A stretch of 23,262 nt of DNA from a virus, in IMG/VR virus record IMGVR_UViG_3300017783_000223, positions 1 to 23,262 of that record; one strand, 5' to 3'. The notes beneath the pieces were generated by a model, which worked only from the letters and a program-made list of their open reading frames with translations, had not been told where the DNA came from and made no database searches. Below are positions 11,742 through 20,526 of the stretch, in pieces. Numbering within the stretch: position 1 is the first letter of the stretch; each line of letters opens with the position of its first letter. Position numbers and translations under genes: made by a program.

Positions 11742-12163
11742 TGCAATTGATCCTTTAGTTGTTGAGGAAACGGCACATAGACTTGCTTGTTCTCTGAGAG
11801 CCACCTAGTTAGCACCTCAGCCGCTTCCGATAGTTGGATAGGGGTTAGCTTAGCTGTAGAGCTTTTGCCGTGCATGGCCTTTATAACAGGCTTGTAAAGC
11901 ATCTCCTTAACTAACACTTCAGTGAAGGGTATCTCAAGGTTATCACTGAACGGATGTCGCACCCAGCAACCAGCATCATTTAGCTCCTCAGCTATCCGCC
12001 TAAACCAGAGGTGCATTGCATTGTTCTGTCTGTCGCTACGCGTAGTGTCCTTGATGTAGTACAGGATCGTCTTGCCTTCCTGCCATTGATCGAGAACAAA
12101 GTTAATAAAGAAGTTAGCTTTGTCTTTGCTGTCTACTATCCAGCGGTGTGATGGATCTGTCAT
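11738..12163 (-). CDS. ninB: NinB-like recombination protein
   Basis: 141 residues. The TRSDRQNNAMHLWFRRIAEE segment (41-60) followed by WVRHPFS and a C-terminal helix with LTRWLSEN resembles the NinB family. Lambda NinB (Orf) binds SSB and ssDNA and substitutes for RecFOR in recombination. The start is ATG 12163 with AAAAAGGAGATCAA just upstream. It is translationally coupled to the NinG-like gene and lies downstream of the ATPase gene, separated from it by the iteron region. Other phages also combine NinB and NinG with an ERF protein, and one is encoded at 13672. Confidence 0.7.
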   Translation of the reverse strand: MTDPSHRWIVDSKDKANFFINFVLDQWQEGKTILYYIKDTTRSDRQNNAMHLWFRRIAEELNDAGCWVRHPFSDNLEIPFTEVLVKEMLYKPVIKAMHGKSSTAKLTPIQLSEAAEVLTRWLSENKQVYVPFPQQLKDQLQ

Positions 12164-12300: not shown

Positions 12301-12356
12301 CAACAGGGGGTCTAAATGTGGGCATTAGGGGCATTCTGGAGGTTTTGGGGCATTCT
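12301..12356 (+). repeat. 56-bp element, copy 1 (second copy at 20471-20526)
   Basis: Ungapped alignment with 20471-20526 gives 46 identities in 56 positions. The conserved core is GGGGTCTAAA, GGGCATTA and two GGGCATTCT units at the same spacing (9 and 19 bp) in both copies. This equal spacing implies a protein-binding array rather than chance. A third, inverted copy of the 22-bp core lies at 12215-12236. Confidence 0.8.
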
Positions 12357-12383
12357 GGGCATTCTGGGCATTCTGGGCATTCT
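12348..12383 (+). repeat. 4 x 9-bp tandem iterons GGGCATTCT
   Basis: Four exact tandem copies of GGGCATTCT end two bases before the stop codon of the ATPase gene. Single further copies are at 12329-12337, 20499-20507 and 20518-20526. A repeat period of 9 bp is shorter than one helical turn, as in some plasmid and phage binding arrays. Confidence 0.9.
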
Positions 12384-14064: not shown

Positions 14065-14297
14065 CTGGTGAAGAAGAGTTCCTTGCGTATATGAAAGTGA
14101 TACGTGAGGAGTTCGATTTTATTTATCAAGTTAAAAGCGCAGTGGCTAACGAAGAATGGGAGACACTGCGTTGCATCGTAGAAGAGACGCCGAATGAGAT
14201 AAAGGAGGCTTTAAATCTGGCGCAATCTAAGGGCGGTGTATTTACCACCCGTGAAAATCAAGCAATGAAAATTAATCCATCAAGGAGAACGCAATGA
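14058..14297 (+). CDS. Small hypothetical protein in the recombination operon
   Basis: 79 residues, acidic and helical, with no membrane segment. Its ATG lies inside the end of the ERF gene and its stop overlaps the SSB-like start (ATGA). EFLAYMKVIREEFDFIYQVKSAVAN looks like a long helix, and KGGVFTTRENQAMK near the end resembles the tail of small phage proteins found beside annealing recombinases. Function is unknown, and a partner of ERF or the SSB-like protein is plausible from context. Confidence 0.7.
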   Translation: MVTGEEEFLAYMKVIREEFDFIYQVKSAVANEEWETLRCIVEETPNEIKEALNLAQSKGGVFTTRENQAMKINPSRRTQ

Positions 14298-14590
14298 ATG
14301 AAGAAAAGAAATTTGTAGACGGCATGATCGTCAAGCTACCACCGGACACAGCGCCAGACTTTGTAAAGCTAAAGCTGTCGTTCAAGCTGGATGAGTTTGG
14401 CTCATGGATAAGCGCACAAAAAGCTGAAGACCCATCGCTTGAGTGGATCAATGTCGAGATCAAAGAGGGTCGATCTGGCAAGTGGTATGCTGAGCGTGAT
14501 ACGTTTAAGCCATCGCCACAACAACCAGCTCGCCAGCCAGCGCGCAGTGGCCCGCCAAAGTCAGTGCCAAACGACGACATCCCTTGGTAA
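14294..14590 (+). CDS. SSB-like protein with acidic DDIPW tail
   Basis: 98 residues after AAGGAGAACGC. The first 70 residues look like a compact beta fold (GMIVKLPP, FVKLKLSFKLDEFGSWI, EWINVEIKEGRSGKWYAE), then a Pro/Gln/Arg/Ser linker and the terminus NDDIPW. SSB proteins end in an acidic tip such as DDDIPF that recruits partner proteins, so fold, linker and tip together suggest a small single-strand-binding protein, half the usual size. No classical OB-fold signature is evident by eye. Other possibilities are a decoy for SSB-binding proteins or an SSB-interacting protein. Confidence 0.55.
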   Translation: MNEEKKFVDGMIVKLPPDTAPDFVKLKLSFKLDEFGSWISAQKAEDPSLEWINVEIKEGRSGKWYAERDTFKPSPQQPARQPARSGPPKSVPNDDIPW

Positions 14591-14667: not shown

Positions 14668-14841
14668 ATGGCTGAATACGTTTACTACCGTGAACTGTTC
14701 GAGATCTTTAAGGCGTACACTACGCCGAAACTTATCCGCGTGCTGGAGTCTCAGGGTATCGAGTATCTAACCGATGCCAAGGGCAAGCCTTTTACTACGC
14801 GCTCTGCCATCGACGGTGCCCTCGCCAAGTCCGAGTCTTAA
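14668..14841 (+). CDS. DUF4224-like small protein
   Basis: 57 residues from ATG 14668, preceded by AGGAGAAAGTA. The sequence YYRELFEIFKAYTTPKLIRV followed by LESQGIEYLTDAKGKPFTTRSAI matches the general layout of DUF4224 proteins: a helix-turn-helix-like half, then G-I-x-Y...G-x-P-x-x-x-R-x-A. Such small phage proteins are often encoded beside integrases or excision genes, but none is visible here. It may be a small DNA-binding regulator. It is bracketed by terminators at 14630-14654 and 14867-14895, forming a separate short unit. Confidence 0.6.
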   Translation: MAEYVYYRELFEIFKAYTTPKLIRVLESQGIEYLTDAKGKPFTTRSAIDGALAKSES

Positions 14842-14866
14842 CTCGCACCATCGAGCGGCTTCGGGT

Positions 14867-14895
14867 CCCTCCGTGCCTGCGGAGGGGTTCGTTTT
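14867..14895 (+). terminator. Hairpin terminator candidate after the DUF4224-like gene
   Basis: CCCTCCG (14867-14873) and CGGAGGG (14880-14886) form a perfect 7-bp stem with a 6-base loop, followed by GTTCGTTTT. The T-run is short and interrupted, so efficiency is uncertain. Confidence 0.5.
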
Positions 14896-14896
14896 A

Positions 14897-15036
14897 GTTG
14901 GATAGGGGTGGTGCCTTCGGGCTGTCCAGTGCCAACACCTTGCGGGCATCGTGCCACCGGAGGAAAGGGGGTGCGGCGTTTTCGCCCATTGGTACGCCGC
15001 AAACCAACTACCGGGGAAGAGAACTACCCCTGGACT
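14897..15036 (+). ncRNA. Candidate structured RNA with pseudoknot potential
   Basis: This GC-rich stretch between convergent genes has no convincing frame. GTTGG near 14897 can pair with CCAAC at 15004-15008. AGGGGTGGT (14904-14912) pairs with ACTACCCCT (15023-15031), with one wobble. GCGGCGT (14973-14979) pairs perfectly with ACGCCGC (14994-15000). GCC-TTCG-GGC (14913-14922) is a stable tetraloop hairpin. GTCCAG (14924-14929) can pair with CTGGAC (15030-15035), crossing the outer stem as a pseudoknot. It matches no RNA class I know. The strand is not certain, as the pairs work on both. Confidence 0.35.
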
Positions 15037-15047
15037 AGGGCATACTA

Positions 15048-15254
15048 TCATTCTCTAAAGCTATATTGCCATTCGGTAGCATCATCAAACCCATAGGTGT
15101 AATGGATGCTTGAGTTAATGTTAGACCGACCCTCAATAGCATCATTCCAGCCAGCTCGGTAGTCTGACTTAATTAAGCTGATGTAATCCTGCATGTGCCA
15201 TCCGCATGGATCGGTGTCGATTATAGGTACAGCCTTCAATGGATCTAGTGCCAT
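15048..15254 (-). CDS. Small protein of unknown function
   Basis: 68 residues. The central segment WHMQDYISLIKSDYRAGWNDAIEGR, with a Y-x-x-G-W-x-D-A-I pattern, resembles small phage proteins with a helix carrying a 'GWNDA' motif that occur in accessory operons, but no function is known. It overlaps the upstream gene by ten bases and is last in the minus-strand operon. No membrane or metal motif is seen. Confidence 0.65.
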   Translation of the reverse strand: MALDPLKAVPIIDTDPCGWHMQDYISLIKSDYRAGWNDAIEGRSNINSSIHYTYGFDDATEWQYSFRE

Positions 15255-20470: not shown

Positions 20471-20526
20471 CAACCCGGGGTCTAAACTTGGGCATTACGG
20501 GCATTCTGACCTTTTTCGGGCATTCT
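20471..20526 (+). repeat. 56-bp element, copy 2 (first copy at 12301-12356)
   Basis: 46 of 56 positions match copy 1 with no gaps, including GGGGTCTAAA, GGGCATTA (20490-20497) and GGGCATTCT at 20499-20507 and 20518-20526. The tandem array that follows copy 1 is absent here. Confidence 0.8.

Follow-up and report, generated by a model that had tools for sequence, protein, structure and literature searches.

A covarying, predicted pseudoknot RNA element located directly after stop codons in phage genomes

The preQ1-II and preQ1-III riboswitches are H-type pseudoknots in which one stem holds an additional hairpin, and the HDV-like ribozyme combines a nested double pseudoknot with hairpins P3 and P4. 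Flaviviral exonuclease-resistant RNAs are pseudoknots of 3' UTRs, often arranged in tandem, that stop the 5'-to-3' exonuclease Xrn1, while the PeSL cassettes of T4-type phages are small mobile intergenic stem-loop elements. Type III antitoxins and the pseudo-ToxI of phage PhiTE are, in the accounts given by PMC3475682 and PMC5086642, phage- or plasmid-encoded tandem H-type pseudoknots; the antitoxin is natively followed by a Rho-independent terminator and then by a toxN-, cptN- or tenpN-like toxin gene (PMC5086642). Gene 32 of phages T4 and T2 carries a pseudoknot in its mRNA, which as described in PMC3014915 is a single 5' operator through which the SSB acts on its own gene. Phage mRNA pseudoknots are a kind already known; what is new here is a pseudoknot family that is missing from Rfam.

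The window analysed here is the whole of the IMG/VR phage contig IMGVR_UViG_3300017783_000223 (23,262 bases), of a phage whose relationship to cultured marine phages is only distant, and the segment examined spans positions 14897-15036. It is flanked by two convergent gene sets, of which the plus-strand set comprises Erf-like annealing and DUF4224/excisionase-like proteins (Pfam and PHROG searches) and a protein that we label SSB-like, and the minus-strand set ends with a 68-aa gene. A GC-rich, noncoding segment able to form a pseudoknot had been predicted here, and such a segment is indeed present. The features of the locus are the following.

14294-14590, plus strand, opposite to the element and not downstream of it: SSB-like gene (our label; no Pfam or PHROG match)
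14668-14841, plus strand: DUF4224/excisionase-like gene (57 aa), the convergent neighbour
14862-14891, plus strand: intrinsic-terminator-like hairpin, serving the plus-strand operon
14896-14972, no strand assigned: flanking 5' half (plus sense), conserved in sequence, with GTGCC at 14911, 14929 and 14951
14973-15035, minus strand: predicted pseudoknot RNA element, 63 nt, 5' end at 15035 and 3' end at 14973; covariation
14973-14978, minus strand: S1 3' strand, CGCCGC; covariation
14979-14983, minus strand: loop L3, GAAAA (mostly RRAAU in the family; two As invariant in 57/57)
14984-14988, minus strand: S4 3' strand, UGGGC; covariation
14989-14992, minus strand: S2 3' strand, CCAA; covariation
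14995-15000, minus strand: S1 5' strand, GCGGCG, pairing with 14973-14978 and crossing S2 and S4
15004-15007, minus strand: S2 5' strand, UUGG, pairing with 14989-14992; covariation
15013-15030, minus strand: S3 hairpin, GGGG (15030-15027), loop 15026-15017 (UAGUUCUCUU), CCCC (15016-15013); covariation
15031-15035, minus strand: S4 5' strand, GUCCA, pairing with 14984-14988; covariation
15048-15254, minus strand: 68-aa gene without Pfam or PHROG match, stop codon at 15048-15050, 12 nt before the element

On the minus strand, positions 14973-15035 almost certainly specify a compact pseudoknotted RNA that forms a structured family of its own, as judged from comparison of related sequences. The fold is an H-type pseudoknot in which S1 (6 bp) crosses both S2 (4 bp) and S4 (5 bp), and the S3 hairpin is inserted into the first stem, in the minus orientation into its 5' strand. 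Covariance model R1, with the window among its 38 training sequences, scores the window element at 70.2 bits (E 1e-11, minus strand). Read as minus, the consensus runs GUCCA, S3 hairpin with a pyrimidine-rich loop, linker, YYGG, UUG, GCNGCG, YC, CCRR, UGGAC, RRAAU, CGCNGC, with GUCCA/UGGAC forming S4, YYGG/CCRR forming S2 and GCNGCG/CGCNGC forming S1; units measure 58-88 nt across the family. Loops L1 and L2 are 3 nt and 1-2 nt long, the interval from S2 to S1 contains no hairpin, and the J segment is variable (UUGAG, UUGG, GUAG). Outside the variable S3 loop, the two As of L3 are the only invariant unpaired bases among 57 distinct sequences. The S3 loop contains CUCC in 31/57 sequences, the window clade having CUCUU instead. 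The 16-nt flank after S1 begins with ACC in 27/56 rows of alignment A3, is pyrimidine-rich and loosely resembles a tRNA 3' end; a tRNA search of the window found none. The element shares with preQ1-II and preQ1-III the H-type pseudoknot with a hairpin inserted in a stem, but its hairpin occupies the 5' strand of the first stem, it has no Rfam match and it is not a dedicated 5' UTR element.

Support for this fold comes from covariation. Across the 57 distinct sequences (of 60), 98.8% of cells are paired and 16 of 19 pairs display two-sided changes, with 136 two-sided-change cells observed as against 32.6 in shuffles; none of 500 shuffles matched these pairing and covariation values, and six slid versions of the alignment, none of them comparable, each fell to 30-52% paired. 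In the smaller set (38 sequences, minus reading), pairing reaches 100% in S1 and in S2 and 99.5% in S4, two-sided changes occur at 12/19 pairs, and again 0/500 shuffles attain the pairing or covariation values. A weaker measure, further pair types, was attained by 15/500 shuffles with 57 sequences and by 32/500 with 38 sequences read as minus, and by all 500 under the plus reading. Each of the four YYGG/CCRR pairs of S2 is intact in 57/57 sequences. S1 had been withheld from the model behind the 60-row alignment, and 337/337 scored cells nevertheless pair (332 Watson-Crick and 5 G-U). Compensated variants include GCAACG/CGUUGC (second copy of L003) and GUCGCA/UGCGAC (L063) in S1; GACCA/UGGUC (L019, L038), GUCUA/UAGAC (L063, L197) and GCCUA/UAGGC (L173) in S4; and, given in plus sense, the change of GGGG/CCCC to AAGG/CCUU in S3 of L009.

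The functional strand is evidently the minus strand, because the wobbles are almost all G-U when read as minus, and the position of same-strand stop codons (below) agrees. The original prediction had read the plus strand, where the 720 scored cells hold 28 A-C, 1 G-U and 6 other non-Watson-Crick pairs, as against 41 G-U, 1 A-C and 12 other in the minus reading; in the window itself, one S4 pair is a U-G wobble as minus and C-A as plus. S3 registers set by hand yield a few additional plus-type wobbles (L056, L060, L158). Thermodynamic stability gave little indication of this: energy z was -2.06 for 156 nt of the plus strand (6/200 shuffles equally good), -0.27 for the minus strand and between -1.03 and +0.81 for eight single elements folded without pseudoknots. 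The element is detectable by covariation, and folding energy alone would have missed it.

The fold first proposed for the whole 140 nt can be retained in part. Its 6-bp helix (14973-14978 with 14995-15000) and a helix crossing it are conserved, the remaining helices being without covariation, and its extent holds for 14973-15035 and not for the 5' half, where 14 sequences revealed no convincing covariation on either strand (14896-14972). The 7-bp helix TAGTTGG/CCAACTA and the long-range helix TAGGGG/CCCCTG are in competition with S2, S3 and S4. In seven close relatives including the window, helices of this type can pair in plus except GTGCC/GGCAT, which is broken in 3/7, and no two-sided change was found in any of them; the 140-nt plus-strand fold was therefore rejected, its best-energy helices lacking such changes. 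The proposed UUCG tetraloop is replaced by UUGG in L007 and L008 and by GUCG in L009. The segment had also been called noncoding, which agrees with single-base indels between near-identical phages (in the G run before 14973 and at an S3 loop base) that make coding unlikely.

The flanking half 14896-14972 corresponds, in L037-type phages, to the stretch from the element to a same-strand gene. Two or three GTGCC direct repeats, 18-23 nt apart, are kept beside the element (window 14896-14972; L006, L017) and could be iterons or protein sites. The motif at 14892-14908 was considered as a repeated phage-polymerase promoter and rejected: the only other site is a 17-mer resembling this motif (TTTTAGTTGGATAGGGG, 3/17 mismatches), at 11828-11844 inside the NinB-like gene, although two matches in the window compare with 0.08 expected by chance. 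Tandem 9-nt units resembling GGGCATTCT were further observed at 12320-12383 and 20490-20516.

Protein searches, pattern scans and covariance model R1 identified, by a tally of contig names over all searches, 80 IMG/VR contigs of uncultured phages besides the window that carry the element. Related contigs were found through the SSB-like protein (8) and the DUF4224 protein (54), and every one that extends far enough has the element after the query gene. The DUF4224 contigs, selected without reference to the element, constitute an unbiased sample; 47/54 are positive and the remaining 7 stop 85-1052 nt past the DUF4224 gene, so that the covarying homologues and the presence in near-identical phages that the prediction called for are confirmed. 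Candidates from IMG/VR pattern scans were retained only if S1, S2 and S4 pair; one scan contributed 10 of 23 new loci and another three new contigs (L142, L155, L158) together with L137, identical with the contig of L016. Alignments A1 and A2 hold 38 sequences from 45 distinct matches, L082, L094, L131, L133, L139, L141 and L160 having been excluded as chance matches ahead of the counts; the second copy of L158 and the cut-off copy of L102 are absent from them, and A3 includes the former and not the latter. Loci L179, L184, L185 and L188 are members by covariance model search and were left out of a later run, and the weak matches L066, L069, L087:900-976, L098 and L134 (E 0.03-0.8) were excluded from membership. 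A short weak match at G039:C1:4779-4815 (19.4 bits, E 0.0186) lies in the record that also holds the element of L187.

Outside this collection, a single GTDB scan returned four matches that we judged to be coding chance matches. Neither the element at the DNA level nor the DUF4224 protein had a match in cultured phages, an element-only search giving two 18-nt matches in Listeria phages that were taken as chance, and R1 finds no element in the 8.3-kb stretch of MW202828, which has an SSB-like relative. Rfam 15 produced no match at the gathering cut-off in the window and 11 loci; at E up to 10 nothing fell on the window element, and weak matches to snoRNA, plastid and lncRNA families in L034, L063 and L187 were dismissed as chance. 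With strong covariation and no Rfam family matched, the earlier description as a structured RNA of no assigned class stands. A literature search found no published description of the element, which does not prove absence.

The location of the element follows a simple rule. With ORFs of at least 45 aa, a same-strand stop lies -1 to 20 nt before the first copy in 48/54 cases (41/54 with 60 aa), compared with 15/54 on the other strand and 676/10800 random positions (6.3%); the overall distance is -1 to 33 nt. The upstream genes form eight blastp clusters (two large, two pairs and four singletons), some possibly spurious as they were built from ORFs of at least 45 aa, which indicates that the element is not bound to a single gene. 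Counting the nearest recognised gene after the element, with only six marker proteins sought and with rows that are sequences including later tandem copies rather than independent events, we found that 43 of the 60 rows have a convergent gene (31 DUF4224, 8 small membrane protein, 4 DUF3310) and 13 a same-strand gene (68-aa 'PIRT' protein 9, HTH protein before a terminase gene 3, ArdC 1), with 4 not assigned; the element precedes a same-strand gene, as a riboswitch would, in the 13 rows and not in the 43. The predicted setting between convergent operons applies to the window and most relatives and fails in the 13 same-strand copies, so that convergence is not the defining feature; location after a stop codon is. 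Mid-operon cases include L176, L179, L184 and L187, in which the element follows the preceding stop codon by 3 nt and stands about 17 nt ahead of the start of the HTH gene; L180 resembles the L176/L187 arrangement, its 5' side being clipped by the model.

Plus-side gene content varies freely among these phages and the element persists. In L020, L022, L033 and L059, DUF3310 separates the element from the DUF4224 gene, which marks a variable gene spot; L020 has more than 1 kb of additional coding DNA there, which looks by eye like a DNA methylase. A further, diverged copy precedes ArdC in L003 and L004; their flanks can be aligned with those of the window, L007, L008, L009 and L017, all of which lack a copy at this spot, and by this comparison the element is gained or lost between close relatives. 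Most phages carry a single copy, as do most other records searched whole. In L034, L158, L177 and L178 two copies lie in tandem, spaced by about 70 nt, L182 has three, and L102 has a second copy cut by the contig end. The 58-kb contig G003 has two SSB-like/DUF4224/element modules (G003:C1:19545-19608 and 55422-55481; L008, L173), the second with about 70% DNA identity to that of the window, reflecting a double module or a chimeric assembly. A U-rich stretch follows the element in only 12/56 cases by a lax rule, which argues against an intrinsic terminator. Compared with PeSL cassettes, the element has no early promoter or U-tract and has a conserved pseudoknot.

These observations lead us to favour, tentatively, a cis-acting pseudoknot RNA at gene ends that blocks or bounds the upstream message on its 3' side. 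Borne on minus-strand operon transcripts, the knot would fold where the upstream gene ends, after translation of that gene, and the compact structure would slow RNA-degrading enzymes arriving from the 3' side or mark a boundary for processing, thereby preserving the message of the upstream cistron and setting it apart from downstream RNA. Between genes of one operon this could give the two halves different lifetimes, and at an operon end the knot could act as a 3' cap replacing a terminator stem. Such a block or boundary fits the use at operon ends and within operons, the missing U-tract, the several upstream genes and the tandem copies, arrays of two or three being compatible with a graded barrier. 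Against protection, a plain GC hairpin would be enough to slow exonucleases, the distance to the stop varies, and stability does not exceed that of shuffles when pseudoknots are disallowed. Moreover, the retention of a pseudoknot in which loop As are invariant and CUCC is frequent in the S3 loop is a hint of a specific partner.

The alternatives rank approximately as protein- or ligand-bound switch, attenuator, small RNA, defence decoy and ribozyme. The hint of a partner from the conserved loops bears on the first, a cis-regulatory switch or operator in which a phage protein or small ligand binds the knot and controls the next gene by attenuation or ribosome access. The element lies 17-19 nt before a start in L176, L180 and L187, about 29 nt before that of ArdC in L003 and about 90-140 nt before the 68-aa 'PIRT' gene in 9/60 rows, and the gene 32 pseudoknot of T4 offers a precedent. 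A switch is nonetheless rather unlikely, since the nearest recognised gene has the opposite orientation in 43/60 rows, leaving nothing to control, and the coupling is to the upstream stop and not to a downstream start. The operator of gene 32 serves one SSB gene, whereas the element stands behind several different genes, and the window's SSB-like gene has the opposite orientation and is not located downstream.

A transcription attenuator or factor-dependent terminator acting on the RNA strand, which we consider unlikely, would account for a location directly behind stop codons and in the gap where convergent genes meet, both being places where terminators belong, and the minus operon of the window has no convincing intrinsic terminator (one weak site overlaps S3); the scarcity of U-tracts and the copies inside operons speak against it. 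A trans-acting small RNA released from the 3' UTR, whose pyrimidine-rich S3 loop would pair with Shine-Dalgarno sequences, draws on the frequent CUCC and is distinctly unlikely: the window clade departs from this motif, the second copy of L034 has a 3-nt loop (hand register), and no promoter or terminator delimits an sRNA.

The tandem pseudoknots, in one to three copies about 70 nt apart in phages, recall pseudo-ToxI and raise the idea that the phage uses them as a decoy, or to mimic the antitoxin, against type III toxin-antitoxin defence in its host, for which PMC3475682 supplies the precedent. Type III units are, in the accounts cited above, 36 nt long and natively precede a terminator and toxin gene, whereas those described here measure 58-88 nt, include an inserted hairpin and follow stop codons. 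A decoy is improbable: the stop-codon coupling is left unexplained, U-tracts are mostly lacking, and Pfam and PADLOC recognised no toxN-, cptN- or tenpN-like toxin gene among the scanned neighbours.

A self-cleaving RNA, part of the original prediction and conceivable as a ribozyme processing operon transcripts, is just as doubtful. Size, pseudoknot and covariation are as expected for small ribozymes in the account of PMC10085705, which gives CUGANGA and GAAA as the hammerhead core blocks. In no permutation does the element correspond to a hammerhead, CUGANGA being absent from the window RNA, the J segment variable and the L3 AA the sole invariant; the hairpin-less S2-S1 interval and the short L1 and L2 disagree with an HDV-like fold, and no Rfam ribozyme matched. 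A single-stranded DNA structure serving as a recombination or replication site would agree with the mobility seen in L003/L004 and the adjoining variable gene content, but is very improbable given the strict one-strand wobble bias and same-strand stop coupling, which point to transcripts.

Returning to the cis-acting block or boundary, an extension that we regard as unlikely is that the element is a mobile, tandemly amplifiable phage module halting host RNases at gene borders. It would by analogy be a phage counterpart of flaviviral exonuclease-resistant RNAs, tuned to decay from the 3' side, from which bacterial decay would mostly proceed here, in contrast to the 5'-to-3' direction of Xrn1. 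If so, phages would paste this module behind stop codons and thereby set message lifetimes.

The element adds a strongly covarying RNA missing from Rfam, with the positional rule that it stands directly after stop codons. If messages are protected or cut by it, phages would shape host mRNA decay by means of nothing but RNA; were it a decoy, it would be one more defence-evasion RNA. The element also documents mobile RNA modules in coding-dense phage genomes.
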